64,000 nt of DNA from Acidobacteriota bacterium (GTDB lineage: Bacteria > Acidobacteriota > Terriglobia > Bryobacterales > Bryobacteraceae), in contig JACPNQ010000002.1 in the NCBI GenBank assembly GCA_016185425.1, positions 62,001 to 126,000 of the forward strand, written 5' to 3'. The notes below the pieces were generated by a model that saw nothing but the letters and a program-made list of their open reading frames with translations, did not search any database and was not told where the DNA came from. A program made the translations under genes and the position numbers. Of the stretch, positions 41,225-57,231 are shown in pieces. Numbering within the stretch: position 1 is the stretch's first letter; every line of letters begins with the position of its first letter.

Positions 41225-43279
41225 ATGTTCTACGATTTTGGACCATTCCGCGTGGATACCGCCGAGCGTCAGCTCTGGCAGGATGGTGTACGCCATTCGC
41301 TCGGTCCCAAGGTCTTCGACCTGCTCATCGTCTTTCTGGAGAATCCCGGCAAGCTGCTGCGAAAGCGCGAACTGGTCGATCGGGTATGGTCGCAAGCCTT
41401 CGTCGAAGATTCCAACGTCGCTCAGCATGTCGCCATCCTACGCAAGGCCCTCGGCGATGTCTCGGAGGATCACCAGTTCATCGTCACTGTGCCCAAGGAA
41501 GGATACCGGTTCGTCTGCCCCGTCGTCGCGTCCACGGCCGCGCCGGAATCCCCGCCGCCCGCGCCCAACCACGCAAAGCCGCGGAAACTGGCCGCGGCTG
41601 TAGCTGCATGCGTCCTCCTCGGCGTGCTGAGCGTCAGATTTCTCACAAACAGCGACACCTCGCGTGCGCCCGTTCCCGTCACCAGCCTTCCCGGCCTCGA
41701 GCTCTTCCCATCCATCTCGCCCGATGGCCTGCGCGTAACTTTTGCCGGCCTCGATCCATCAGGCACCGCGAGCCACATCTATGTAAACGACTTGGCCGGA
41801 GATAAGCTCCCCAAGCTTCTCACGCCTCTCGAATTCTCTGACACTTGCCCGGCGTGGTCGCCTGATAACAACACGATCGCCTTCCTTCGTCACCCCGGCC
41901 CCAACGCCGAAGTGCGCATCATTCCCGCCCAGGGCGGTGCCTCTCGCCAAATTGGCGTAACTTCGGGAATGGTCCTCGCGTGGTGGCCAGACTCAAAATC
42001 GGTCATCATCGCGGATCCCGCGTCCACCGGGCAGCCATTCGCGCTGTTCCGCGTCGACATTGCCACCGGCGCCCGCACCAAAATCACATCTCCCACCGCA
42101 GGCATCGGTGACATCGCCGCCGCAGTCTCCTTCGATGCCCGCAGCCTGGCCTTCGTGCGCTGGTCCTCCGAGTCCGGCTATCAGATCCTCGTCCGGCCGC
42201 TCGATGCCGATACTCCCAGAGTCGTCGTCCGTGATGCCAAGCCCATCTACGGTCTCGCCTGGTCGCCCACCGATCGTGATCTCATCTACTCCACCTCGCG
42301 CGACAGCAAGCCGAAACTCTGGCGTATCGCCGCCGATGCCTCGCCCGCAACGGACCCCCAGCGAATCCCCAATATCGAGGGCGCCGCCCTCACGCCCGCT
42401 GTCGCTCGTCGCAATGGCAGGCTTGTTTACACGCAGTTTCAAGAGGACGTGAGTATTCGACGGTGGAATTTTCCTTTGCAGGGACCTCCCGTCCAAATCG
42501 CGCAGTCCACCCGAATAGACCTCGACCCCGCCATCTCCCCCGACGGCGAATCCATCGCCCTGTCGTCGGATCGCGGAGGCGCATATGAAATCTGGGTCTG
42601 CGATAAAAACGGAGCCGGCCTGCATCAAGTCACTCATTTCCATTTGGGTACCGCCGGCTCTCCCCGCTGGTCCGCCGATGGCCGGAGAATCGTCTTCGAC
42701 TACTCCCTCTCTGGCAAGAACGCCATCTATGTCGTTAACGCCGACGGCTCCGGACTCACCGAAGTCCCCACTGGTACTCGTAGTGCCTCGCGCCCAAGCT
42801 GGTCCATCGATGGCCGTTCCATCTATTTCCGTTGCTCTCTTCCCGATAGCAGCCAGATCTGCAAAGTCGGTGCTGCGGGAGGACCTGTGCTGCAGCTCAC
42901 AAAAAACGGCGGCGCCGAAGCTTACGAATCCCGCGATGGCAAGACCGTCTTCTTTGTTAAATCCGTCGACCAACCCGGACTATGGCGCATCCCGACCGAA
43001 GGGGGTCCCGAGTCGTTGGTCAACGAAGGAGTGTGGCAGGGATATTGGGGCGTCGGAAATGAAGATATCTACTTCGCGGCAATACGCCAGGCATCCATGG
43101 CCTACTCGCTCTCGGCGATCCACTTGAAGGACAACCAGGCCCGTTCCCTGCTCCCTCTGAATACCAAGCTCGTGCCGTTGACTCCGGGCTTCTCAATCAC
43201 CCCGGATGGCAGCACGCTTCTGCTGCTCCAGGTCGATAGAAACGAAGCCGACATCATGATGATTGACAGGATTAACTAG
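41225..43279 (+). CDS. Membrane-anchored winged-helix regulator with TolB-like beta-propeller (CadC-type)
   Basis: 684 residues. Residues 1-100 form an OmpR/CadC-type winged-helix DNA-binding domain (LGPKVFDLLIVFLENPGKLLRKRELVDRVW, VPKEGYRF). A proline-rich linker leads to one membrane segment (about 121-140). The remainder is a periplasmic six- or seven-bladed propeller with recurring WSPDN and SPDGE motifs. This is a one-component sensor: the propeller detects a signal outside and the winged helix acts on DNA at the membrane. Targets are unknown. The design is common in Acidobacteria. Confidence 0.9.
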   Translation: MFYDFGPFRVDTAERQLWQDGVRHSLGPKVFDLLIVFLENPGKLLRKRELVDRVWSQAFVEDSNVAQHVAILRKALGDVSEDHQFIVTVPKEGYRFVCPVVASTAAPESPPPAPNHAKPRKLAAAVAACVLLGVLSVRFLTNSDTSRAPVPVTSLPGLELFPSISPDGLRVTFAGLDPSGTASHIYVNDLAGDKLPKLLTPLEFSDTCPAWSPDNNTIAFLRHPGPNAEVRIIPAQGGASRQIGVTSGMVLAWWPDSKSVIIADPASTGQPFALFRVDIATGARTKITSPTAGIGDIAAAVSFDARSLAFVRWSSESGYQILVRPLDADTPRVVVRDAKPIYGLAWSPTDRDLIYSTSRDSKPKLWRIAADASPATDPQRIPNIEGAALTPAVARRNGRLVYTQFQEDVSIRRWNFPLQGPPVQIAQSTRIDLDPAISPDGESIALSSDRGGAYEIWVCDKNGAGLHQVTHFHLGTAGSPRWSADGRRIVFDYSLSGKNAIYVVNADGSGLTEVPTGTRSASRPSWSIDGRSIYFRCSLPDSSQICKVGAAGGPVLQLTKNGGAEAYESRDGKTVFFVKSVDQPGLWRIPTEGGPESLVNEGVWQGYWGVGNEDIYFAAIRQASMAYSLSAIHLKDNQARSLLPLNTKLVPLTPGFSITPDGSTLLLLQVDRNEADIMMIDRIN

Positions 43280-44606: not shown

Positions 44607-45254
44607 TTGACTCCTTCACGGACTGAGTTCGCCGGGCTGATCGTCGAGGAACACATTTTCCTCAGGGCGGTTGACTTGTGTCTGGCAGGCATCGGCTTGG
44701 TTCTACTGTCGCCGGTGATGATCGCTGTCGGACTGGTAGTTGCGGCTCTCTCCCGCCGTTCGCCGTTCGTCTCTCATTTGCGAGTAGGGAAGAGCGGCGT
44801 CCCTTTCTGGATGTTGAAGTTCCGAACGATGTGGGACGGCCGGCCGGCGCGAAACTTTTGCTGGGTCGAACGGCTGCAAGGCGGGGAGCCAAACGATATC
44901 AAGCCTCCGCAAGATCCACGGGTCCGTAGCGGGTTTGCGCGATTTTGCCGGACTTATTCGCTGGACGAGTTGCCGCAACTGCTCCACGCATTGAGCGGAC
45001 GCATGTCGCTTGTGGGGCCCAGGCCGCTAACGAGTGGGGAATTGGACAGATACTACGGCCCCAGCCAGGCGGAGATTCTGGCGATTGCGCCGGGACTGAC
45101 CGGGCTTTGGCAGATCAAAGGCCGAAATGCTCTGACTTATCGCGAGCGCGTTCGCTTTGATCGATTCCTCGCACGGAACTACTCGTGGCGGCTCTATTGG
45201 TATGTGTTGGTTCGCACCATTCCTCTCGTTCTGAGCGGCAAGGGCGCGTGGTGA
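44607..45254 (+). CDS. Initiating sugar transferase (undecaprenyl-phosphate sugar phosphotransferase)
   Basis: 215 residues, the short catalytic-only form of the bacterial sugar transferase (WcaJ/PglC-like) family. One N-terminal membrane helix (FLRAVDLCLAGIGLVLLSPVM) precedes the core, with KFRTMW, SLDELPQLLHALSGRMSLVGPRPL and PGLTGLWQIKGRN. It transfers a sugar-1-phosphate onto undecaprenyl phosphate to start a polysaccharide repeat unit. The start is a TTG at 44607 with no good Shine-Dalgarno sequence. It opens the exopolysaccharide locus. Confidence 0.92.
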   Translation: MTPSRTEFAGLIVEEHIFLRAVDLCLAGIGLVLLSPVMIAVGLVVAALSRRSPFVSHLRVGKSGVPFWMLKFRTMWDGRPARNFCWVERLQGGEPNDIKPPQDPRVRSGFARFCRTYSLDELPQLLHALSGRMSLVGPRPLTSGELDRYYGPSQAEILAIAPGLTGLWQIKGRNALTYRERVRFDRFLARNYSWRLYWYVLVRTIPLVLSGKGAW

Positions 45255-45262
45255 CGCGGACG

Positions 45263-46057
45263 CTAAAGCGTAACCGCCATCGTTGTGGTGTTGGGCGAAG
45301 CAATCCCACTCACCTGCCACTGCAACGGGTGCGCGCTGCCGGCGCCCGCCGCGGCCGGAACGAACGCGTTCACCTGATAAACACCCACAAAATCCGGCGA
45401 GATCCCCGCGAAGAGCAATTGCGCCGACATGCCGTTCACCAGAACTTGCGGTGGAGTAACCACGTTGCGCAGCTTGTCAGTCGAGTTTCTGCCGTTGGCC
45501 ACTTCAGAATCGAGTGCCCCGAGGCCGCTGCCCAGGATGATCACGTAGTCCCCGGCTTTTGCGGGACGGCAGTTGATGCCTTGAATGGCCCCAACGGGCT
45601 GTGCGAGCGTCCCGTCCGGGTTAATGGCGATGGCAAGATTTCGCACCGCATAGATACCGGGCGAAAACGGAGCGAGCGATACGGGCTTCGGCGCCGACGC
45701 GACACCGTTCCTCGTCACTACAACATTCGCGGTGCCGGTAAGTGTTCCGGCGGGTAGCGTGTTCCACGGAATCTGCGCGTTGATTTGGCCGGGTGAAACG
45801 AACAGGAGAGGTGCGGGAACGTTGTTGAATGTAACGGAGACGTTCGCTAGCGAAGTGGAGAGGGGAATGGAATCAGCCTGTGCTAATCCGGCGGCGAGAT
45901 TGCTTCCGAAAATGGAGACCAGCGAGCCCGGAGTCACGGCCTGGCCGGTAGCAAAGGTGGCTGCATTCAAAACGCCGCCGTCGGCGACCGCGGGGCCTTG
46001 GCAGAGCGCCGTCCACGATAGCGTCAACAGAATAGACACCCGGTAGACCCAATGCAT
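45263..46057 (-). CDS. TIGR03437-type secreted protein of Solibacter-like bacteria
   Basis: 264 residues with a signal peptide (HWVYRVSILLTLSWTALC). GVLNAATFATGQAVTPGSLVSIFGSNLA is the opening of the TIGR03437 domain, followed by VTFNNVPAPLLFVSPGQINAQIPW, which is the most diagnostic part. The domain is built of Ig/TIG-like sheets and is nearly exclusive to Solibacter-type Acidobacteria. Its role is unknown, perhaps adhesion. It lies tail-to-tail with the sugar transferase, eight bases apart. Confidence 0.88.
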   Translation of the reverse strand: MHWVYRVSILLTLSWTALCQGPAVADGGVLNAATFATGQAVTPGSLVSIFGSNLAAGLAQADSIPLSTSLANVSVTFNNVPAPLLFVSPGQINAQIPWNTLPAGTLTGTANVVVTRNGVASAPKPVSLAPFSPGIYAVRNLAIAINPDGTLAQPVGAIQGINCRPAKAGDYVIILGSGLGALDSEVANGRNSTDKLRNVVTPPQVLVNGMSAQLLFAGISPDFVGVYQVNAFVPAAAGAGSAHPLQWQVSGIASPNTTTMAVTL

Positions 46058-46102: not shown

Positions 46103-47914
46103 TTATTGGCTTCCGGACGAGAGTTTTCTGAGCGTTTCATTGACCTCTGGGAGCGCACCACCACTCCGTTCGACGGCCGCGGCCGCTTCTGCGGCGGCTT
46201 CGGCGCGTCGTCCTCCGGCGTCGAGCACCTGGGCAAGGATCCAATGAGGCTTGAACCAGTTGGGGGCGGAGCGGATCGCGCCGCGCAAACTCTCCTCCGC
46301 GTCGCGCCGATCGTTCACGCCGGCGTAGAGGCTCGCCAGGTAGTAGTAGGCGTTATGGGGATCTTCGCCGAACTGCGTTGCGCGGATAGCGGCCTGCACG
46401 GATTCCTGCCATCCCTTGACGGCGAATAACAGGTCCGGCTGGCGGCGGACGTTCGCGTGCATGACGCGGGAGTAGTAGAGATCGGAGTTCACTCCCGGCG
46501 GCTGCCACTGCCGCGCGCGCTCGTAAGTCTGTGAGGCCTGGACGACATCGCCTTTCTCCAGCATGCTCTTGACTTGAAGCAGCAGATAATCCGCGATACA
46601 CAGCTTGACGGCGAAGGCAACGAAAAGGATCGACAGCGCGGGAGCGGCGATCCACTGCCATTTCGGACGAGGGGAGGGCGGCGTCACGTCGTCGCCTGTA
46701 CGCATCAGGAAAAGGCCGGTAACAAAGTAGAAGTAGGCGGTAACTAGGACGAAGGCATTGAACTGCAGGCTGAACGTGGCGGCGATAAAAGCGGCTCCGA
46801 TCGGCGCGTCGCGCGAGTGCCCAAGCGCGCGCCACGCAGCCGCGAACGCCAATGCGCACCACCCGAGAAAGCAGGCGGCGGCCGGGAATCCCTTGCCCGC
46901 CGCCTCATCGAGAAAAATGTTGTGCGGCGATTCGTGATAGAAGTCCGGGTAGGCCTGCGCCAGCGCGAGCGATTGAAACTGGGGAAATTGTGCCGAAAAT
47001 GTTTCGGGTCCCCAACCTGTGACGGGCCGCTCCGCCGCCATGTGCAGCGAATCCTTCCACAGATAAAGCCGCGAGCCGCCACGCGGATCCTCCATATACC
47101 AGCGGGTCCGGCCCCTGAGTTTTAGCCCCCACGGCGAGTAATAGAACGCGGCCATTATGGCGGTGGCCGCGATTGCGAGCGCGGCCAGACGGCGAACGGG
47201 CAGCCGGCGCCTCATTGCAAGGAGACTGGCACCCAGCAAGAGTCCAAGAATGGCGGATCTGGTGCCGCTCAGGACGATCGCGAAACCACCGAGCGCCGCC
47301 GCGCCCGCCCCGGCCCATTGCCATCGCCGTTCCGCTTCGCGCACCAGAAGAGAACCGCCGAGGAAGACCGTGAAGAGCAGATAGCAGCCGAGATAGTCGG
47401 CGTGTCCGATTGTTGCTGGGGGACGAACGATAGTCCATTCGCCCTCGCCGATGTGATACGCGGCGGAAGGGAGCAGCAGGTCATAGCCGAAGTACTGCGC
47501 AATGGCGTAGACGGCGATCGCGATTCCGGATACCGCGATCGCTCGAAGCGCTCTTCGACTCAACAAACCAGCGCTCTGCCTTGCCAGGATCGCGAGAAGC
47601 AGGAGAACGAATAAAGCGAGTTGAGTAACCAGGCCGAAGCGGCGCCAGTTACTTCCGCTGAATGAGAGGGCGGGGTGCGTGGAAGTGGCGGTGGCGATCG
47701 AGAGGAAGACAATCTGCAGGCCAACCAGGAGCGCGGCACGGCGGTCTTTGCTGTCCAGTGCGCGCCATCCGGATTGCGCCGGAATCAGCCAGCAGCCCGC
47801 CGCAACACCTGTTAACAGCACGGCGGCTTTGGGCGTGATATCGAAATAGAAGAACCAAAAGGGAAGTGCTAGGATTGGGATCAACACTGCAAGCAGGGCC
47901 GACAAGTTTGCCAT
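46103..47914 (-). CDS. O-antigen ligase/polymerase-like membrane protein with C-terminal TPR
   Basis: 603 residues. The N-terminal 430 residues have about 11-12 membrane segments with the long periplasmic loop of the Wzy/WaaL family (GWGPETFSAQFP, YHESPHNIFLDEAAGKG). The loop carries the conserved Arg and His seen in ligases. Residues about 450-600 are TPR helices (NAYYYLASLYAGVNDRRDAEESLRGAIR), a frequent addition. It polymerises or transfers lipid-linked polysaccharide in the periplasm. The 5' end overlaps the divergent Wzz-like gene. Confidence 0.88.
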   Translation of the reverse strand: MANLSALLAVLIPILALPFWFFYFDITPKAAVLLTGVAAGCWLIPAQSGWRALDSKDRRAALLVGLQIVFLSIATATSTHPALSFSGSNWRRFGLVTQLALFVLLLLAILARQSAGLLSRRALRAIAVSGIAIAVYAIAQYFGYDLLLPSAAYHIGEGEWTIVRPPATIGHADYLGCYLLFTVFLGGSLLVREAERRWQWAGAGAAALGGFAIVLSGTRSAILGLLLGASLLAMRRRLPVRRLAALAIAATAIMAAFYYSPWGLKLRGRTRWYMEDPRGGSRLYLWKDSLHMAAERPVTGWGPETFSAQFPQFQSLALAQAYPDFYHESPHNIFLDEAAGKGFPAAACFLGWCALAFAAAWRALGHSRDAPIGAAFIAATFSLQFNAFVLVTAYFYFVTGLFLMRTGDDVTPPSPRPKWQWIAAPALSILFVAFAVKLCIADYLLLQVKSMLEKGDVVQASQTYERARQWQPPGVNSDLYYSRVMHANVRRQPDLLFAVKGWQESVQAAIRATQFGEDPHNAYYYLASLYAGVNDRRDAEESLRGAIRSAPNWFKPHWILAQVLDAGGRRAEAAAEAAAAVERSGGALPEVNETLRKLSSGSQ

Positions 47915-49008
47915 TATCTATCCAGGAACCGAGTGGGACATCGCCTGACTTCGATGCCAGGGATTTCGCCCTTCACCTGCGAAGGCATTGGAAGTTTTGC
48001 GCCATGGTATGCGCGGTCGCGGGAGCGCTGACGCTCGCCTATTGCCTGTTGACGCCTCCCCGCTATACGTCCACTGCGAGCATATTAATCGAAGCCCCCG
48101 CCGGGAACGACTCTCGCATAGCGACATCGGTGAGCCCAGTCTACCTCGAATCCCTAAAAACCTACGAGGTTCTGGCGGGCAGCGAAGGCCTCTTTTTACA
48201 AGCTGTGAATAAATTCCATCTCCGCGGCGGAAATAGCGAGCAAACGCTGGAGGCCTTGAAGGCGCGCATATTGAAAGTGAACAAGCTGCGGGACACAAAG
48301 GTGATGCAGATCGCGGTGACGCTGAAGAACGCCGCCGATGCGCAAGCCGTTGCCCAATACCTTGCGGAAGAGACCGTGAAATCGAGCGATGCCATCGCTA
48401 ACGATTCCGGCGCCGGTTTGGTGGAAGAGGCGCGCAGACAGGCGGACTTGGCCAAGGCCGCAGCCGATGAAGCGCGGATGGCGATGGCGAAGGCGATGGC
48501 GGCGCAACCGGTTGAATCGCTCAGGACCGGGCTCGAGGCGATGGTGGAACTGCAGTATCGCTTGAAGCGCAACCAGGCGGAGGCGGACACCGACGCCGCC
48601 GAATATGAATCGCGTGCCATGGCGTCCGGCCGTGCGAACCGCGATGAGGATTTGCGAATGGGAGCGTCCATGCGGGCGCGAGCCGCGCGGGCAGAAAAGC
48701 TCGCGGGAGAGCTTGAGGGAAAGATCGCCTCGGCGAGCAGGTTGCTGGCGGAGCGAACGGCTAACCTGCAGAGATTCGAGGCGGCCCTGCAGGGCGCCCA
48801 AAAGACCTATGATGCCGAAGCGAAGCGCGTGCTCGACTTGAAAGCGGCTCTGGGGATGAGCGGGGAGCGATTGCGGGTAATCGACCGCGGCGCCGTTCCA
48901 GAGCGGCCAAGCGAACCGAAAACAGCGCTGCTGGTTGGCGCGGCGATAGGGTTGGCTATGCTGGCGAGCGTCGTTTATTTGAGCATTACGTTTGGCTTCC
49001 GCGCATGA
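47866..49008 (+). CDS. Wzz-like polysaccharide chain-length/co-polymerase protein
   Basis: 380 residues from the upstream GTG at 47866; the TTG at 47908 is another candidate start, giving a shorter overlap with the divergent ligase. Membrane segments flank a long periplasmic region: TM1 at about 43-62 (FCAMVCAVAGALTLAYCLLT) and TM2 at about 353-375. Between them runs a coiled-coil-rich domain of Ala, Glu and Lys (about 165-340). PERPSEPKT is the proline motif before TM2. There is no C-terminal kinase domain. It is expected to control polymer length with the neighbouring ligase-like proteins. Confidence 0.85.
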   Translation: MLGLGSTLQAGPTSLPLSIQEPSGTSPDFDARDFALHLRRHWKFCAMVCAVAGALTLAYCLLTPPRYTSTASILIEAPAGNDSRIATSVSPVYLESLKTYEVLAGSEGLFLQAVNKFHLRGGNSEQTLEALKARILKVNKLRDTKVMQIAVTLKNAADAQAVAQYLAEETVKSSDAIANDSGAGLVEEARRQADLAKAAADEARMAMAKAMAAQPVESLRTGLEAMVELQYRLKRNQAEADTDAAEYESRAMASGRANRDEDLRMGASMRARAARAEKLAGELEGKIASASRLLAERTANLQRFEAALQGAQKTYDAEAKRVLDLKAALGMSGERLRVIDRGAVPERPSEPKTALLVGAAIGLAMLASVVYLSITFGFRA

Positions 49009-50423
49009 CCGGCCCGGCGCATACCGGCCGCGCGATTCTTCTGGGTTGCTATGCGGCGGGTGTGGCGCTGGCGCCCAGTTGGACGCTGCGCGCGGCGGGC
49101 GCGGCGCTGCTGTTCGCGCTCCCGGCGTCATGGTGGATTCTGAGCGGAGCGAACCACTGGATCAGCGCCTTTCTCGCGGCGGCAATCCTGCTTCCGCCCC
49201 TGCCGATTCCGATCGGCAACTCCGGCCCCCATCCGTCGCTGCTGGTTGCCGCGAGCGGTCTTGTCGTTGGGATTCTCAGGGCGCGCGAATGGACGATTCG
49301 CTTTGACAGGCTGGCAGCGTCTTTTTTGGTGTTTTTTTCGATTCTACTCGCGAGCACCGCGAGCGCCGCATTCATTTCCGGCGGTGGGACGGCGCTGGGA
49401 AGCATTGTCCGTGTGATGCTTTTCGGCATCTCCCTGTACGTGTATTTCTACACCGTTTACGGGCCTGGCCGCGCCGGCATGGGAAGCGAGATACGCGCCG
49501 TCCGATGGCTGTCTGGCGCGGCAATCCTCGCTGCTCTGTTCGCCTGGGTGGATTTCTATTTTCAGTTCCCCGCGCCGGCTGGCTATGGCGCCCAGTTCGT
49601 CTGGCTGGCGAGCGGAGTATTCCGGCGCGCGCAAGGTCTGTTCTACGAGGCCAGCACACTAGGAAATTTCAGCGCGTTTTTTCTGGTCCTGATCGCGGTG
49701 CTGATACCGGACGCGAAGCGATGGCCGGTGTTGCCTCGAGCCGTTATGATCCCGGCCGGAGCGGTGCTATTCGCGGCGCTCATGCTTTCCTATTCGCGCG
49801 CATCAATCGCGGCGCTCATGGCCGCAATCGGGACTCTCGTCTTTCTGCAAGCGAAACGATCCGGCGTCCGTTACGGAATCATTCTGATTCCGTTCTCTCT
49901 CGCCGCCGGGGCGCTGGTCCTGCTGCTACTTCTTCCGGAGTTCACGCAGATCTATCTCCGGCGGATGACGGGCTCATTCGAGTATTTTTTCTCCGATACC
50001 AACGCCATCCTCTCCGGCCGGTTGGAAAGCTGGCGCGCGGTGTTGAGGCTGCTAGAGGACAATCCGCACTACCTGCTTACCGGCATTGGATACAAAACAC
50101 TTCCGTACACGAATCTCGCCGGACGGCCGCTTGTGGCCGACAACATGTATCTCAGCTTGCTCATCGAGACCGGCGTTGCGGGGCTGGCGGCGTTCGTTTG
50201 GATGAACATCTGCATACTGCGCGCGAGCTATGCGGCCGCCGTCCAATCGAATCGAAACGGCGCACTGTTGGGCACATGGTTCTTCTGCTTTTGGGTGGGA
50301 GAACTATTCCAGATGTTGTCCGGCGACCTGCTGACGTACTGGCGCGTGCTGCCGATTTACTTCTGGGTGCTGGCCGCCGCTCTTCGAAGCACCTCGCCCA
50401 CGTATGAACATCCTCTTCGTTGA
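49005..50423 (+). CDS. Second O-antigen ligase/polymerase-like membrane protein
   Basis: 472 residues, about 12 membrane segments. The ATG overlaps the Wzz-like stop (ATGA). It has the family loop with YSRASIAALMAAIGTL, and a longer periplasmic loop near residue 340 (ESWRAVLRLLEDNPHYLLTGIGYKTLPY) with the conserved Arg and Gly-rich GIGYK motif. It lacks the TPR part of the divergent homologue. Two such proteins in one locus suggest one polymerase and one ligase. Confidence 0.87.
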   Translation: MTGPAHTGRAILLGCYAAGVALAPSWTLRAAGAALLFALPASWWILSGANHWISAFLAAAILLPPLPIPIGNSGPHPSLLVAASGLVVGILRAREWTIRFDRLAASFLVFFSILLASTASAAFISGGGTALGSIVRVMLFGISLYVYFYTVYGPGRAGMGSEIRAVRWLSGAAILAALFAWVDFYFQFPAPAGYGAQFVWLASGVFRRAQGLFYEASTLGNFSAFFLVLIAVLIPDAKRWPVLPRAVMIPAGAVLFAALMLSYSRASIAALMAAIGTLVFLQAKRSGVRYGIILIPFSLAAGALVLLLLLPEFTQIYLRRMTGSFEYFFSDTNAILSGRLESWRAVLRLLEDNPHYLLTGIGYKTLPYTNLAGRPLVADNMYLSLLIETGVAGLAAFVWMNICILRASYAAAVQSNRNGALLGTWFFCFWVGELFQMLSGDLLTYWRVLPIYFWVLAAALRSTSPTYEHPLR

Positions 50424-51453
50424 TCAGTTCGGCGACCTGGGAGGCGCGCAGCTTTGCCTGCTCGAACTCATACCGGAAACGTTGCGGCGAGGGTGGAAGC
50501 CATTCGCGGTCGTGCCCGGTCAGGGATTGCTCGCGGAACGATTGGAGGCATTAGGCGTCGTTGTGACACGATTCGCGGGAAGCCGGACCGGGGGCGCTCC
50601 TGGACACTTGATTGAAAGTGCTAGGCTGGCAAGCTTGCTGCGAGAGTTATGCAGCCCGGAGAGGTTTCAACTCCTCTACGTCAACGGTCCGCGCGTGCTG
50701 CCCGCCGTGGCGTTACGGCCGCCGGGCTTTCCAGTGCTGTTCCATGCGCATAGCGTGCCAAACGGACTGGCCCGCAAAGCAGTGCGCTGGGCCGTCAAAC
50801 GTAGTAATGCCAGAACAGTCGCGGTGTCGCAGTTCACCGCAAACGAACTATTTCCCGGACGCCAATCGGCTGTGGTCGCAAACGGCGTCGGCGATCTCCG
50901 CCTGCCGCGCACGGAAAATGGTGTGCCGCGAATCGGGATCATCGGGCGAATTGCGCCGGAAAAGGGCCAGCTTGCCTTCGTGGAAGCGGCCCGCCTGCTC
51001 CCACAGTATCGGTATGTCGTCTGCGGCGCGCCGTGGGTGTCGCAAGACGGTTACGCCGAGCGCGTGAAGCGTGGTGCGGCGGGATTGCCCGTTACCTTCC
51101 TCGGGTGGAGGGAAGATATCGGAGCCGTTCTTGCCGGTCTTGATCTTCTGGTCGTTCCTTCCATCGGGCCGGAGGCCTTCGGCCGCACAGTGATTGAAGC
51201 TTTTTCTGCGATGGTTCCGGTCGTGGCGTTTCCGTCGGGCGGGATCGCGGAGATTATTGATGACGGCCGGAACGGGTACCTGGTGGATCCACAGACGCCT
51301 GAAGCGCTCGCTCGGCGTATTGACGAAGTGCTTGCCGACGCCGCTGGCCGGCAGCGGGTTGCAGACAACGCCCGCGCCGACTGGCAGACGCGCTACACAC
51401 TCGACCGTTATGTCGCCGGAATTATGGAGCAGATTGTTCTCGCAGTAAGCTGA
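50404..51453 (+). CDS. GT-B glycosyltransferase (group 1/GT4-like)
   Basis: 349 residues. NILFVDQFGDLGGAQLCLLEL is the donor-independent N-terminal Rossmann half with the Gly-Gly-Ala-Gln loop. The second half has GIIGRIAPEKGQLAFVEAARLLPQYRYVVCG, followed by the EX7E motif in GPEAFGRTVIEAFSAM. It transfers a sugar from a nucleotide donor to a lipid-linked oligosaccharide. It overlaps the ligase gene by 20 bases at its start. The stop overlaps the convergent fusion gene by 32 bases. Confidence 0.92.
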   Translation: MNILFVDQFGDLGGAQLCLLELIPETLRRGWKPFAVVPGQGLLAERLEALGVVVTRFAGSRTGGAPGHLIESARLASLLRELCSPERFQLLYVNGPRVLPAVALRPPGFPVLFHAHSVPNGLARKAVRWAVKRSNARTVAVSQFTANELFPGRQSAVVANGVGDLRLPRTENGVPRIGIIGRIAPEKGQLAFVEAARLLPQYRYVVCGAPWVSQDGYAERVKRGAAGLPVTFLGWREDIGAVLAGLDLLVVPSIGPEAFGRTVIEAFSAMVPVVAFPSGGIAEIIDDGRNGYLVDPQTPEALARRIDEVLADAAGRQRVADNARADWQTRYTLDRYVAGIMEQIVLAVS

Positions 51454-53794
51454 AGAACAGAAAAGCCGCCAGCGCCGTCAGCACCGCGGCCGCCAGCAAC
51501 ATGGGCTGATATCCCATTCTGGCGATTACCTGGCCGGCCAGCGCCGCGGCGATTGCGTGCGTCGCAAACATAACGACGAAATTCCAGGCCGACGCGCTGG
51601 TCCGGCCCTCCTCCGGCACGCCCTTCATCAAGAGGCTGAAAATGCCTGGCTCGCTCATATACTGGAACGCCGTAAATGCGCAGTAGACGCCTCCGAGCAT
51701 CACCGCCGGAGCAACGCCTAATGTCGCGAGGCAGATCGCGGTTCCGGCTTGCATCAAAGCGATGCCCGGCACCAGCTCGAATCTGCGAAGCGCCAACGGC
51801 GCCAGCAGCATCGCCACGACTTGCGCAAACCGGGCAAGGGAGAAGACCAGGCCGACTTGTGCGGTCGTCATGTGAACGACTTTGGCGAAATAGACGTTAA
51901 AGAACGGTTCAAGCGATCCTGTGGCGACACCCCACACGGCCATGGCCGCCAGAAAGCGGAGAAGAAACGGACTGGGACGGAAGAACTGGCGCGCTTCCAC
52001 ACGGGACTCGAGCGGGATCCGAAGTAACGGCAGAGCCGCGAGCGGAGCAAATGCGCATCCGAACCAGATGGCGTTACGGATGGAGCCGAAGACGGTCGGG
52101 AGCCACCCATCCACCGCGCCGGCGATAATGCCCAGCGTGATGGAGGAAGAGAAAAACAGGCTGAAGACGAAAGAGCGGTTCCGCTCCGTCGTCAGTTGCG
52201 CGATCGACGGCGAGAGGCACACCGCCCACAGCGATTGGCACATTCCGCCCGTGAAGGCGAGGGCGAGCAGCCAGGTCTTGCCCAACAGGAGAAGGCGGAG
52301 CGCGAGAATGAATCCCGTCACGGCGAAGCAGGCGATGAGGCTGCGGCGGAGCCCGATCTTCCCGATCAACGCGTTGGCCGAGAAACTGCCGGCTAAGCTG
52401 CCCGCCGCCATCGCACTGCCTATCAACCCCAGGAAATCCTCCCTGTATCCAGCCTCGGCGAGGTAGAGGTTGTAGAGCAGATAAAACGTGAACAGCGCGA
52501 AATGGAAGAACATCGAAGCGCCGTAGAAACGCCAATAGGCGCTCGAAATCTCCCGTCGGCCGAACCACCAACCCAGCCCGCTCCACAACGTGGGAATCAA
52601 AACGCGTGCGTGAAGGCTGAACCGCGCGAAGACAAATCGCAGATACAGCCATCGATCGTGAGCCCGGCGCCGCCATGTCCGCTGCGCCGCTGGGACGTGG
52701 ACCGCCCCTACCGGCCCCGGCGGCCGCATAGGAAGCAGGCGGCGGCGCAATACAGCCAGCTTCGCGGCGCTGGACTTGAGGAGGCCGAGGTGCAGCCAAA
52801 GCTCGTCCTTATTGGGATGGAATGGCGATTCCAGCGGAGAGCGCCCCCAGCGTGCCGCCCATGTTTTCACGGATGCGGGTAAGCCATCCACGGCGGCTTG
52901 CGCCTGCGGGGGAACTCGGCACCCGAACCACATTTGCGCCAATAGGAAACAAATGCCCTGTATTTCGATCGACGCCTCGTCCCGCGCAGCGCCCCATTGC
53001 TCCTCAAATGAGCGGTCCCAACTGTGATGCAGGAACCAGGCGGCTTCATAGAGATGCACAGGACACGAGTCACCGCGGAGGAGATGGCGGAGCGCATGCC
53101 GGCATGTGTAATCCAGCGCCGCCAACCTGCCGAGCACGGGCATGGAGGTGCCGCCTATCTCGCGCAGCACTCGCCCATCCCAGAACTCGGTGGAAGATTC
53201 AGGACCGAACCGTTCGGTCTTGCGGTCCCAGAACTGAAAGTGAATCTCTATGGCGATAGGAATCTCAATATCGAAGAAATCTCCTTTCCATTCCCACCCC
53301 GTCTTGCGGATCATGACCGGCAAGTGGTCTGTAGGAAACTCCTTCATCTCCTCAAGTGCCTCGTATCCGAGACCACGGAGCGTTGAAACCGCGCCCGCCA
53401 ACGAATCGGCAGGGCAGAAGAGATCGAGATCGTATTGTGTCCGGCAGGACAACTCCGCGACGAAATCCGGCCATTGCGCGGGACCCTTAAGAATCAGGCA
53501 TTCGACGCCAGCCGCGGCAAACTGCTTTAGCACCTCGGCGGACAGATCCAGCAAACGATTCAGCCTCTCGCGGTTGGCGTTCGCACTTACAGTGAAACGC
53601 TCACGTACCCAGGCGGGCAGGTTTTCGTCCTGTATGGCGGAAAACCAGCGCAGTGTGATCCTGTTTCGATCGCAGTAAGAAATGGCTTCCCGCCAGTCCT
53701 TATCGGTTAACGTTGCGATGCAGGTGCGGTCGGTGCAGTCAAAGCGGAGAGTCTTAAGGACAGCCGCCGGACCCGCGGGGAGAATGCGCGGCAT
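51422..53794 (-). CDS. Fusion of nucleotidyltransferase-like domain (NTP_transf_5 type) and MFS transporter
   Basis: 790 residues from the ATG at 53794 (GAAGGG before it); a TTG at 53812 overlaps the previous stop. Residues 1-325 resemble the uncharacterised nucleotidyltransferase family: ECLILKGPAQWPDFVAEL and TQYDLDLF with Asp122 and Asp124, then IAIEIHFQFWD and a His-rich helix (CRHALRHLL). A basic linker (about 340-415) leads to an MFS of about 12 helices from about 420 to the end (SSAYWRFYGASMFFHFALF; GLRRSLIACFAV between helices 2 and 3). Family members without the MFS are seen next to HPr-kinase-like genes, as here. Role unknown. Confidence 0.82.
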   Translation of the reverse strand: MPRILPAGPAAVLKTLRFDCTDRTCIATLTDKDWREAISYCDRNRITLRWFSAIQDENLPAWVRERFTVSANANRERLNRLLDLSAEVLKQFAAAGVECLILKGPAQWPDFVAELSCRTQYDLDLFCPADSLAGAVSTLRGLGYEALEEMKEFPTDHLPVMIRKTGWEWKGDFFDIEIPIAIEIHFQFWDRKTERFGPESSTEFWDGRVLREIGGTSMPVLGRLAALDYTCRHALRHLLRGDSCPVHLYEAAWFLHHSWDRSFEEQWGAARDEASIEIQGICFLLAQMWFGCRVPPQAQAAVDGLPASVKTWAARWGRSPLESPFHPNKDELWLHLGLLKSSAAKLAVLRRRLLPMRPPGPVGAVHVPAAQRTWRRRAHDRWLYLRFVFARFSLHARVLIPTLWSGLGWWFGRREISSAYWRFYGASMFFHFALFTFYLLYNLYLAEAGYREDFLGLIGSAMAAGSLAGSFSANALIGKIGLRRSLIACFAVTGFILALRLLLLGKTWLLALAFTGGMCQSLWAVCLSPSIAQLTTERNRSFVFSLFFSSSITLGIIAGAVDGWLPTVFGSIRNAIWFGCAFAPLAALPLLRIPLESRVEARQFFRPSPFLLRFLAAMAVWGVATGSLEPFFNVYFAKVVHMTTAQVGLVFSLARFAQVVAMLLAPLALRRFELVPGIALMQAGTAICLATLGVAPAVMLGGVYCAFTAFQYMSEPGIFSLLMKGVPEEGRTSASAWNFVVMFATHAIAAALAGQVIARMGYQPMLLAAAVLTALAAFLFFSLLREQSAP

Positions 53795-53801
53795 GTTCCC
53801 T

Positions 53802-54770
53802 TCAACCTGCAAACTCTTCCAGGCAAGCTGCCGCCTCGCCCGTGTCTGAAAAGGTCAGCGTCAGCACCGCGCCGGACAGAACCCGGCGGAGCGATTGCAC
53901 ACACTCGGCTTGGGTGGCCGGCCTTCCGTAATGATTGGTCGCCGCCAGTCGCTGCAGGGCTTCGCTCACTGGAACGGGGCTTAGGCGTGCACCGCCCGTC
54001 TCCCGGCGGTCCAGGAATATCACCGAATGCACGGCAATGCGGTCCGCGGTCGAAGGGAGATGCAAATCCGCCGTCTTTACTTCAATCGTCATCTTCCCAT
54101 TCGGAGTCTCCACCGGCACCAAGCCGGCCAACTCGGGGAAGAGGTCCCGGGCGGCCGGCCGGAACCGGATGCGATCTGGATTGCCCGCAATGACGCTATC
54201 GGACGCACGCCGGATCAGAAAGCTGGCGTCGTCGGAAACATAAGTCCAGCCGCGTTTCGCCAGTGTGTACGCCAGGCAGGACTTCCCATGTCCGGCTTCA
54301 CCGCATAGCAAAATGCCGTGGCCTTTCCACGCGAGGCAGGCGGCGTGAATTCCGGTCAGATGCCGCTCCGCCACCAGACAAAAGCTCGCCGATTCGAGAA
54401 AATGAAAACGCAGGAGCGCTGTGTCGCTGAAGACTTTGGGCGTAAGCCATGCGATCCCCGTCCCGGTATGAAAGTCGCAGGCGGCAAAGTGGTGGCCGTC
54501 GCTGACGAACCAGATCAGGTGATCCTGCGACCGCACGACTGGCGCTGGCGGAAACTGGCCCGTCTCTTCTCCCACGATCGCGACATCCAGACGGAGAGGG
54601 GCGGCCCGCTCGTGCTGAAGAAAGTTCCCCAACCCTTCCTGCGCGGCGTGCAGAACACGCACATCGTTTGTGCGGATGCGGAGAGGAAATCCATAGGGGA
54701 AGTAAAGTTCCTCCAGCGGGAATTCGAATAAATGGAGTAGTGGATCCCGTTCTTGCAATGCAGCGCTCAT
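53802..54770 (-). CDS. HPr-kinase-like protein with Walker A motif
   Basis: About 322 residues from the ATG at 54770 (AAGG before it; an ATG at 54788 is possible and would overlap the flippase stop). The N-terminal half is unrecognised. The second half has a P-loop GEAGHGKS (157-164) and YVSDDASFL, with the Asp pair near 180, as in HprK-related kinases. Such proteins occur in lasso-peptide and polysaccharide clusters beside the nucleotidyltransferase family found in the next gene, seven bases away. It probably phosphorylates a small molecule or peptide rather than HPr. Confidence 0.85.
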   Translation of the reverse strand: MSAALQERDPLLHLFEFPLEELYFPYGFPLRIRTNDVRVLHAAQEGLGNFLQHERAAPLRLDVAIVGEETGQFPPAPVVRSQDHLIWFVSDGHHFAACDFHTGTGIAWLTPKVFSDTALLRFHFLESASFCLVAERHLTGIHAACLAWKGHGILLCGEAGHGKSCLAYTLAKRGWTYVSDDASFLIRRASDSVIAGNPDRIRFRPAARDLFPELAGLVPVETPNGKMTIEVKTADLHLPSTADRIAVHSVIFLDRRETGGARLSPVPVSEALQRLAATNHYGRPATQAECVQSLRRVLSGAVLTLTFSDTGEAAACLEEFAG

Positions 54771-54777
54771 GCCCGCC

Positions 54778-56133
54778 TTAGGGCGCATTGCAGTCTAACA
54801 CGCGCCGCGTTGGCATCCTCTTCCGGATTTCAAAGATAACAAGTATGAACGCCGCGGCCATCGCCAGAGTACTGGCAAGCGCGATTCCGGGAACTCCCAT
54901 CCACCGCATCAGGAAGTAGTCCCCGGCCGCGTTCAACACGGCGGTTACCAACGCCACACGAAGCAGCAGCGCATTCGCACCCATGGCCGATACCAGCCGC
55001 AAAGCCATCGCAAGCAGGAGCGCCACGGGCACCTGGGGCAGCGAGTACCGTTGCGTGGAAGCGATCAGTTGCGCCGTATCTGTCGTGAATACGTTTCGCT
55101 GAAAAACCAATGCCACGAGTTCGGAAGAAAACAGGATCATCGTTGCACAGAGCGGGATCGAGATCAGCAGTATCAGCCTGCTTTGTTCTTGCAGCGTCTC
55201 GCGGATCGCGCTCCAGTTCCCGGCGGAGACCAGGCGCGAGAACACAGGCAGGATGGCCGTCCCCAATGCGCCCCCTGCGACCGCGGCAATCACGGCGGCC
55301 AGCTTTATTCCGTAATTCAACGCCGATACGCTCCCGCCGGGCAGAGTTGCGGCCATCGCCTGGTCCAGCATCAGGTTCCCGCCGCTGATCGCTGCGGCCG
55401 CGATCAGGGGAAGGTACTGCTCCATCACAGACGCGATCGCGCTGTCCCTTCCCTTCCACCGGGGCAGGAGCCGTATCCCGGCCCGCCGAACCGCTCCACC
55501 CAGCACCAGAAGCTCCAGCATCACGCCGGCAAGGGTCGCCCACACAAGGATCCACACGTTCGCGCCCGGCTTGGCGAACAACAAGGCGAACACGGTGGTC
55601 AAAGGAGTGATTCCCACGGCCAGCGAACTCGCCTTGAACCGTTCCTCGGAGATGAGCGCCGCCCGCCACATGACAGCCAATCCGCCACATGGGACGAGAA
55701 GTAGCAGCCAGCAAAACATCTCCAGGGACAAGGCCCGCTTCCCTTCCTCGAAGCCGGAGGCGATCAACCCGACGAATAGCGGCGCGCCAATCGCCAGAAC
55801 CACCGCCGTGCCCGCCAGCAGAGAGAGCACAAGTAGCGTGACGCTGCCGTGGAGGCGTTCCATCGCCGCCCTGCCGCGAGACTCGCGCGCGGCGATCAAC
55901 GCGGGAACCAGCGCCGCCGGGAGCGAACCGGCAACGACATCGGAAAAGAAGGCCGGCAGCGAGAATGCCGCCAGAAACGCGTCCAGTTGATCGCCCGCGC
56001 CAAACCGGCTCGCCATCAACACGATCTTCACCGCGCCGGCAAGTTTGGCCGCGGCGAGAAATCCGCCTACGACAAGCGTCTGCGTAAATAATCTCGACTG
56101 CCCATTTACCGTGCGTTTTATCGCGGCGAACAT
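54778..56133 (-). CDS. MurJ/MviN-like lipid flippase of the exopolysaccharide locus
   Basis: About 451 residues from the ATG at 56133 (AGGA eight bases before); an upstream ATG gives an unlikely tail. Twelve or more membrane segments. AAKLAGAVKIVLMASRFGAGDQLDAFLAAFSLP is the MurJ-type first repeat, and the QRYSLPQVPVALLLAMALRLVSAMG pattern repeats later. In this cluster it most likely exports the lipid-linked repeat unit in place of a Wzx protein. The GT gene diverges from it 27 bases away. Confidence 0.87.
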   Translation of the reverse strand: MFAAIKRTVNGQSRLFTQTLVVGGFLAAAKLAGAVKIVLMASRFGAGDQLDAFLAAFSLPAFFSDVVAGSLPAALVPALIAARESRGRAAMERLHGSVTLLVLSLLAGTAVVLAIGAPLFVGLIASGFEEGKRALSLEMFCWLLLLVPCGGLAVMWRAALISEERFKASSLAVGITPLTTVFALLFAKPGANVWILVWATLAGVMLELLVLGGAVRRAGIRLLPRWKGRDSAIASVMEQYLPLIAAAAISGGNLMLDQAMAATLPGGSVSALNYGIKLAAVIAAVAGGALGTAILPVFSRLVSAGNWSAIRETLQEQSRLILLISIPLCATMILFSSELVALVFQRNVFTTDTAQLIASTQRYSLPQVPVALLLAMALRLVSAMGANALLLRVALVTAVLNAAGDYFLMRWMGVPGIALASTLAMAAAFILVIFEIRKRMPTRRVLDCNAP

Positions 56134-56160
56134 TCGAGAAATCCTGTACACTCCTTCGGC

Positions 56161-57231
56161 ATGCGTGTGGCGATCGTTCACTATTGGCTGGTCAATATGC
56201 GGGGCGGTGAGAAGGTCATTGAAGCTCTCTGCCGATTGTTCCCCGAAGCCGAACTGTTCACACTTTTCTATGAACCGGACCGTGTGTCGCCGCTAATTCG
56301 CTCCCGCCGGGTCACCGCATCGTTCCTGAATCCACTCCGCAAGCATTATCGCGCTGTGCTGCCGTTAATGCCACTTGCGCTGGAGTCGTTCGATCTTCGA
56401 AAGTTCGATCTCGTGATCAGCAGCGAGTCCGGGCCCGCGAAGGGGATCGTCACCTCCGCCTCGACTCGCCACATCTGTTATTGCCATACACCCATGCGTT
56501 ATTTATGGGATCTCTATCCGGACTATCTTCACGAGTGGACCTCGAACCCGTTGAAGCGGGCAGCCATAGCCCTGTTCGGCAACTATCTTAGGATTTGGGA
56601 TTACGCCGCATCCGCCCGCGTCGACAACTTCATCGCCAACAGCGCGAATGTGCAGCGGCGGATACAGAAGGCGTACCGGCGGGAATCGACGGTGATTCAC
56701 CCGCCTGTCGACGTCGCGGCATTCTCCTGGCAACCGGCGGAAGACTACTATTTGATCGTGTCCGAACTGGTGGCTTACAAGCGAATTGAACTCGCCTTGC
56801 GGGTATGTAGCCGAATGGGGCGGCGGTTGGTGGTCGTTGGGGACGGACCGGAGCGGCGGCGTCTTTCGGCACTCACCTCCAGCGGCATTTCGTTTCGCGG
56901 CAGAGTTTCAGATGAGGAACTACGCGGCCTATACTCGCGATGCCGCGCGCTGATCGTTCCGGGAGAGGAAGATTTCGGAATTACGGCGGTTGAGGCGCTG
57001 GCGAGCGGGAAGCCCGTTGTCGCTCTCGGACGTGGTGGAGTGCTCGAGATTGCGACGGTGCCCGGTGCCGGATACTTCTTCGATGAGCCGTCGGAATCCG
57101 GATTGGAAAGCGCCCTGATTCAATTTGAGGAGTCCGAAGTGGACCGGGAGGCTTTGCAGGCCCACGCCAGCCAGTTTTCCGAAGAGGTGTTCCGGGAGAA
57201 GGTCTCCTCGTTGTTGTTGACACCCGGATGA
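56161..57231 (+). CDS. GT-B glycosyltransferase, WbaZ/mannosyltransferase-like
   Basis: 356 residues. RVAIVHYWLVNMRGGEKVIEALCRLFPEA is the opening typical of mannosyltransferase-like GT4 enzymes, followed by VTSASTRHICYCHTPMRYLWDLYPDYLHE. The second half has LIVSELVAYKRIELALRVCSRMG and the EX7E motif in GEEDFGITAVEALASGKPV. It probably adds mannose or a related hexose to the lipid-linked unit; the sugar is inferred. It starts at an ATG at 56161 and ends the exopolysaccharide locus. Confidence 0.9.
   Translation: MRVAIVHYWLVNMRGGEKVIEALCRLFPEAELFTLFYEPDRVSPLIRSRRVTASFLNPLRKHYRAVLPLMPLALESFDLRKFDLVISSESGPAKGIVTSASTRHICYCHTPMRYLWDLYPDYLHEWTSNPLKRAAIALFGNYLRIWDYAASARVDNFIANSANVQRRIQKAYRRESTVIHPPVDVAAFSWQPAEDYYLIVSELVAYKRIELALRVCSRMGRRLVVVGDGPERRRLSALTSSGISFRGRVSDEELRGLYSRCRALIVPGEEDFGITAVEALASGKPVVALGRGGVLEIATVPGAGYFFDEPSESGLESALIQFEESEVDREALQAHASQFSEEVFREKVSSLLLTPG

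Follow-up and report, generated by a model that had tools for sequence, protein, structure and literature searches.

What can a nucleotidyltransferase and a membrane transporter accomplish in a single polypeptide that is encoded beside a kinase and within an exopolysaccharide locus? The question is raised by a 64,000-nucleotide stretch of DNA from an Acidobacteriota bacterium of the Bryobacteraceae (GenBank assembly GCA_016185425.1, contig JACPNQ010000002.1, positions 62,001 to 126,000), which is called the window here. It encodes a fusion of an NTP_transf_5-type nucleotidyltransferase (NTase) with a transporter of the major facilitator superfamily (MFS), directly preceded by an HprK-type kinase. 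A tentative reading, short of probable, is that these proteins form a transport-coupled tagging unit, in which first the kinase and then the NTase would modify a small molecule, X, that is made by the cell or taken up. Its observed basis is the domains, the conservation of the fusion, the gene order, the tie to exopolysaccharide genes, the co-occurrence of MFS with an outer-membrane transporter, and the mutual exclusion at the loci of MFS and a radical S-adenosylmethionine (radical-SAM) gene cluster.

The fusion gene lies on the minus strand (51422–53794). Its frame is open from 51422 to 53812, and the best ATG, at 53794, gives 790 residues with no internal stop. Both families are matched in the same protein, NTP_transf_5 (PF14907) with 95.5 bits against a Pfam cut-off of 31.2 and MFS_1 (PF07690) with 68.5 bits against 33.4. 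The single frame described in an earlier note on this DNA, made from the letters alone, is thus borne out, as are the family assignments that it proposed for the N- and C-terminal parts; the frameshift or stop between the halves that it named as a refutation is absent from the window. The Pfam spans (NTP_transf_5 36–272, MFS_1 431–750) belong to a 795-residue reading, from which 5 is subtracted for the ATG numbering used here, placing the NTP_transf_5 domain at residues 31–267 (52994–53704, minus strand). NTP_transf_5 proteins are characterized by an LKG motif, an arginine, a DxD motif, and a third acidic residue. This set is present in the fusion: K103, G104, R118, D122, and D124 show no variation across 27 aligned fusions, the two aspartates lie inside YDLDLF (about 53423–53431) as the earlier note had claimed, and the third acidic position, two residues ahead of His185, holds D or E in 17 alignment rows. 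Profile and motif agree in assigning the N-terminal part to NTP_transf_5, its acidic motif being intact, and nucleotidyl transfer is its predicted reaction; Pfam describes the family as "uncharacterised nucleotidyltransferase." The window genome has one such gene. A sequence search for a solved structural relative of the NTase found none; the best match (E 0.0053), a 65-position alignment with a coiled-coil protein, looks fortuitous.

The AlphaFold2 model of the fusion, built on the 27 aligned sequences (mean predicted local distance difference test (pLDDT) 88.8, predicted template modelling score (pTM) 0.79), places from N to C terminus the NTase domain, a helical part, a 40-residue juxtamembrane helix rich in arginine and aromatic residues (374–413; 52556–52675, minus strand), and 12 membrane helices (418–786; 51437–52543, minus strand). 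This matches the count of about 12 given earlier, and the helices together with the MFS_1 score place the C-terminal part in the superfamily. With the N terminus inside, the inner loops hold 20 Lys/Arg and the outer loops 6, so that the NTase part is predicted to be cytoplasmic; both ends of the MFS part are predicted inside. The best fold matches (NorA at the top, VMAT, AmpG, G6PT, FucP, and MelB) are MFS proteins of mixed function, and a search of solved structures by sequence gave one weak match for this part, OCT2. A viral structure library returned MFS matches for the fusion along with nonsignificant LicD-type ones.

Is the fusion more than an accident of one genome? A scan of an 84,980-species collection by two short NTase patterns, which distant fusions can escape, yielded 43 loci, all from Acidobacteriota by title, that make 44 with the window. 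Both halves share one open frame in 27 of the 44; the MFS gene is adjacent but in another frame in three (L090, L094, L107) and absent within 3 kb of the NTase in 14. Because the in-frame fusion is seen in so many loci, it is more than chance, and a sequencing or assembly artefact was rejected as its source. A set of 151 genomes, the window's own included, contains a match to the fusion in 38, 18 of which hold both halves in one frame (one cut by a contig end), and a search of 398 genomes of a second family found the NTase in 18 and in-frame fusions in three (L131, L134, L144). On the NTase tree, which is unrooted, the fused state requires nine changes, at least five of them on well-supported branches. 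A single clade of fusions is therefore rejected, gain and loss being indistinct on such a tree. Our reading is that the fusion may be old and have been split or lost many times, which an unrooted tree cannot prove. Many unfused NTases stop just past the juxtamembrane helix, and many NTases without MFS keep this helix. At two loci from different genera (L119, identical with L128, and L120, identical with L135), a run of nine T inside membrane helix 1 is where the frame shifts; these junctions may mark a split fusion or a slippage site that still yields the fused protein. L136 is broken at the same place, and its contig runs out without an MFS match. An apparent kinase–NTase fusion in genome G035 was rejected, as its 717-residue frame runs past the kinase by chance and the kinase lies in another frame.

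The kinase gene is located upstream on the same strand (53802–54788, with an alternative ATG at 54770, the upper limit of the span given in the earlier note), and 7 bases separate its stop codon from the ATG of the fusion, the distance given in that note. It matches Hpr_kinase_C with 35.7 bits (cut-off 33.3), carries the P-loop GEAGHGKS at about 54279–54302, and has a lysine, K169, that is invariant in 30 alignment rows. In its model (pLDDT 91.9), the best fold match is phosphoenolpyruvate carboxykinase, with HPr kinase structures next; score, P-loop, and fold agree in placing it in the HPr kinase C-terminal fold. It is not a member of the true HprK family (TIGR00679, 36.3 bits against 240). 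With the HprK-related kinases A and B and ScmC, it has the P-loop kinase core in common but scores far under their cut-offs (TIGR04352, 39.6 bits, and TIGR04355, 38.1 bits, against 200 each; ScmC, 20.7 bits against 125). The kinase–NTase pair is conserved: of 33 loci whose upstream DNA exceeds 4.5 kb, 30 have an HprK gene within 5 kb upstream of the NTase, and the others are L097 (kinase on the opposite strand), L098, and L099. Over the 44 loci, the recurring order is glycosyltransferase, MurJ-like protein (optional), HprK, TonB-dependent transporter (optional), NTase–MFS, glycosyltransferase, Wzy, Wzz, and Wzy-TPR.

Exopolysaccharide genes flank the kinase and the fusion on either side in the window, in line with the earlier note. 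Relatives of one of its Wzy_C proteins (Wzy49) occur in 30 of the 151 genomes, all 30 of which have the NTase, compared with seven of the 121 remaining genomes. Relatives of the other (WzyTPR) occur in 32, 29 of them with the NTase (8/119 in the remainder). The Wzy49 relative and the NTase lie on different contigs in 10 of the 30; draft genomes may split one locus, and related genomes in these counts are not independent. The NTase goes with one particular exopolysaccharide locus. In the genus of the window, the whole locus is atypical: all 18 other genomes are without the NTase and both Wzy-like genes, and three have weak kinase matches only.

Which other proteins keep company with the unit depends on the MFS part. 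The gene between kinase and fusion in relatives encodes an outer-membrane barrel with a CarboxypepD_reg domain (PF25183, 705 and 696 bits at two loci). This architecture is also that of the Oar-type TonB-dependent transporter of Myxococcus, which the barrel protein presumably resembles; the relatives' gene differs in its place within the kinase–NTase unit. Among 42 of the 44 loci (L091 and L092 have too little upstream DNA), such a transporter precedes the NTase in 22 of 30 with MFS and in none of 12 without. In a wider set, it adjoins the unit in 25/35 loci with MFS and 1/24 without, and the genome of the single MFS-less case (L062) carries a kinase and an MFS gene on another contig (L127). 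The window genome is rich in relatives of Oar-type transporters (172 matching pieces); even so, the fixed place of the transporter and its split between MFS and non-MFS loci are beyond chance expectation. The parts also occur unfused. In Acidobacteriaceae-like genomes (L052, L119–L122), transporter, HprK, MFS, and NTase are separate neighbors, and MFS, HprK, and transporter are separate neighbor genes in L052, L121, L122, L124, and L125. Where one lineage fuses proteins that another encodes separately, the proteins probably cooperate. L124 and L125 have the transporter–HprK–MFS set with no NTase nearby, and in L124, the next gene encodes a glycerophosphodiester phosphodiesterase with HEAT repeats. 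A porin-like outer-membrane protein of about 357 residues without a Pfam match lies near the kinase–NTase unit in L052, L119–L123, and L066 (parts in L053), accompanied by a small cytochrome c, a cupredoxin, a cytochrome c, and often two-component genes.

Loci without MFS often have a different set near HprK and NTase, namely several B12-binding radical-SAM proteins, methyltransferases, an amidohydrolase, and a SPASM radical-SAM protein; the named models closest to these genes (BchE, HpnJ, PTO1314, NirJ) all score far below cut-off. Parts of the cluster are found no more than 9 kb from the NTase in 0/35 loci with MFS and 13/24 without, or 0/24 and 11/18 when at least 6.5 kb of upstream DNA is available (duplicates L058 and L059 and the NTase-less L124–L127 are omitted). 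The same holds for whole genomes. The SPASM gene is found in 12 of the 151: in none of 22 with NTase and MFS, in 12 of 15 that have the NTase without MFS, and in none of 114 without NTase, where G131, which has the MFS half only, was dropped and 37 of 38 NTase genomes were kept. The Fisher value for the 151 genomes is 2.5e-7 with kinship ignored. The genome lists behind this count and that of the Wzy relatives were compiled by hand. The three NTase genomes with neither are G066, G091, and G139, and the last two carry further genes of the cluster at their loci (L091, L066). Among 396 genomes sampled from the phylum, the fusion profile matched 23 (the window's own, eight with an MFS match, and 14 with NTase only), and the SPASM gene was present in 34, including 11 of the 14 NTase-only genomes and one of the eight MFS genomes. 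The exclusion recurs in two families, f1 and f11 (L119–L122 and L052 against L123 and L053). The cluster was seen beside HprK, NTase, or both in L053, L056, L098, L109, and L123. Its link to the pair had no place in the earlier note, and the TonB-dependent transporter of the relatives, being absent from the window, was invisible there.

How might these parts act together? Because the cluster and the two-membrane transport set are mutually exclusive beside the kinase–NTase pair, both are suggested to supply substrate, which implies import; the exclusion of MFS (with the outer-membrane transporter) and the radical-SAM cluster fits precursor uptake better than product export. We infer the enzyme activities, their order, the inward direction, and the nature of X as follows. 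X would be supplied either by local synthesis through the radical-SAM/B12/SPASM/methyltransferase cluster or by uptake through the Oar-type transporter and the MFS permease. The HprK-type kinase would phosphorylate a hydroxyl of X, and the NTP_transf_5 enzyme would then attach a nucleotidyl or sugar group. In the window lineage, the permease bears the NTase on its predicted cytoplasmic face, where X would meet the tagging enzyme on entry. The tagged product could be used with the exopolysaccharide and, in Acidobacteriaceae-like genomes, perhaps with the cytochrome/cupredoxin set. The earlier note had suggested that the pair activates or modifies a small molecule that the fused protein then moves across the membrane; the first half remains the best reading, and the exclusion pattern turns the second from product export toward precursor uptake. 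A further-reaching version, which is doubtful, holds that some Acidobacteriota make a diffusible metabolite that others capture, with import, phosphorylation, and nucleotidylation coupled and the product used with exopolysaccharide.

Several known systems resemble this scheme in part. LicABC proteins take up choline, phosphorylate it, and nucleotidylate it for a surface polymer. The outline is similar to that of the proposed unit; the window genome has no match to LicD (PF04991) at E 0.001, and the LicD-type fold matches are nonsignificant (best E 0.15). In fusions of the LplT–Aas type, an MFS transporter is joined to an enzyme acting on its cargo, an acyltransferase/acyl-ACP synthetase. The joining is like that of the window fusion, with another enzyme and another domain order. 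The closest precedent is the tailoring of lasso peptides, where, according to two reviews, an HprK-like kinase phosphorylates a C-terminal serine and an annotated nucleotidyltransferase then adds hexoses; one of the two considers that the latter may be a glycosyltransferase or a nucleotidyltransferase aided by a host enzyme (PMC8498205, PMC9266682). The window pair may likewise act sequentially on a small molecule, by analogy with this kinase-then-nucleotidyltransferase order. In pseudomycoidin-type tailoring, the HPr-kinase homolog PsmK and the annotated nucleotidyltransferase PsmN work in turn on one hydroxyl, and PsmN may or may not belong to PF14907. Of the co-occurrence of the two families in lasso and polysaccharide loci that the earlier note stated, the lasso part is in print for an HPr-kinase homolog and an annotated nucleotidyltransferase. 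The window differs in that its NTase is fused to MFS inside an exopolysaccharide locus. No lasso genes are present among 11 window proteins scanned, nor a leader peptidase or cyclase beside the pair among nine proteins of the 44.6–57.2 kb region (short precursor peptides were not searched for); a lasso peptide cluster was considered for this locus and not seen.

A number of results weigh against uptake and tagging. The window itself has no TonB-dependent transporter between kinase and fusion, only the 7-base gap, and 8/30 MFS loci are likewise without one. The MFS fold matches, as modelled, point to no substrate and no transport direction. Myxococcus Oar is reported to be needed for the secretion of a protease (PMC6434023). 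When kinship is taken into account by independent pairs on supported branches, MFS and the outer-membrane transporter change in the same sense in 4.9/8 pairs and never in the opposite one (median p 0.0625, range 0.031–0.25; 3.4/5 pairs with median p 0.25 in a smaller set); the pairs are few and miss significance, and their direction is steady. MFS against SPASM gives 5.0/8 opposite pairs and none of the same sense (p 0.0625; 40 of 59 tree rows, those with genome-level data), and the cluster at locus level gives 4.5/8 (median p 0.125), so that these corrected tests also agree in direction and fall short of significance, with few events. Across the phylum sample, the tie between the SPASM gene and a close NTase breaks down, as 22 of the 34 SPASM genomes have no fusion-profile match at E 1e-20; some of these SPASM matches are distant and low-scoring, and others are strong (e.g., G377, G514). 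These 22 genomes slightly lower the likelihood of exchange between makers and takers. In G393, an MFS match and the SPASM gene occur together, with no kinase or NTase next to the MFS.

The main rival, itself rather unlikely, is export, in which a cell-made molecule is modified by the kinase and the NTase and then crosses the inner membrane through MFS and the outer one through the Oar-type protein. NorA as the top fold match speaks for it; many MFS proteins are exporters, and lasso loci carry out tailoring before export. The radical-SAM loci would need an exporter as well, yet they are without MFS, and the absence of SPASM from all 22 NTase genomes with MFS in the 151-genome set points the same way. 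Less likely still, MFS could flip or export an exopolysaccharide intermediate, either lipid-linked or a sugar, with the kinase and NTase decorating the repeat unit. This would suit the presence of the NTase in every genome with the Wzy49-like gene, the conserved gene order, and the lack of a Wzx-like protein among the L067 genes scanned (four, plus those recognized in the locus comparison), but these same exopolysaccharide genes are also found at loci without MFS (e.g., L093, L098, L102, L104), and MFS units stand apart from this locus in L119–L122. Nor do a MurJ-like gene and MFS replace each other, a substitution that was rejected because all five MurJ-like loci of the 44 carry MFS too.

That the MFS and radical-SAM branches serve different substrates, their exclusion being lineage history, is improbable: the few independent contrasts leave room for it, and the repetition of the exclusion in two families argues against it. 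Very improbable is a regulatory pair, with the kinase or NTase modifying a protein that controls exopolysaccharide and MFS as a sensor. True HPr kinases act on proteins, and two-component genes lie beside several related loci; the unit has no partner protein, however, and the exclusion of the biosynthetic cluster would be left unexplained. Uptake followed by tagging is retained as the tentative preference.

If it is correct, the abundant but hard-to-culture Acidobacteriota possess a hitherto undescribed route for the entry and tagging of a shared small molecule. On the further-reaching version, a permease joined to its NTase would represent a novel way of capturing a molecule as it enters, and soil communities would have the metabolite in common. 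Fusion, kinase, outer-membrane transporter, and alternative cluster together make the substrate of NTP_transf_5 testable, as the cluster product should equal the transporter cargo. The individual parts are of known kinds; no description of their combination, an NTase–MFS fusion with kinase, transporter, and radical-SAM cluster, turned up in the open-access literature searched, subscription papers being mostly outside it.

The remaining genes of the window locus surround the pair. On the minus strand, a MurJ-like flippase gene (54778–56181; PF03023, 179.6 bits; TIGR01695, 187.5 bits, under its cut-off of 235.55) overlaps the start of the kinase gene. Two GT4-type glycosyltransferases, assigned by profile and locus comparison, are encoded on the plus strand, one beyond the flippase (56161–57231) and one convergent with the fusion, whose 3′ end it overlaps (50404–51453). 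The latter is preceded on the same strand by Wzy49 (49005–50423; Wzy_C, 57.3 bits), a Wzz-type chain-length protein (47866–49008; 31.0 bits, cut-off 25.5), and an initiating sugar-phosphate transferase (44607–45254; Bac_transf, 145.5 bits), with WzyTPR, a Wzy_C protein (76.1 bits) with a weak TPR match, on the minus strand (46103–47914). A Trans_reg_C protein with PD40 repeats lies near this locus (41225–43279), and a TIG-domain protein (45263–46057) recurs in related exopolysaccharide loci. In L063, L064, and L065, an HprK-like gene of 676–707 residues is followed by the NTase and exopolysaccharide genes; it seems to encode a double kinase domain, its L063 copy being matched over two stretches. 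In L044, on a contig shared with L089, a tandem pair of HprK-like genes stands ahead of the TonB-dependent transporter and the fusion.
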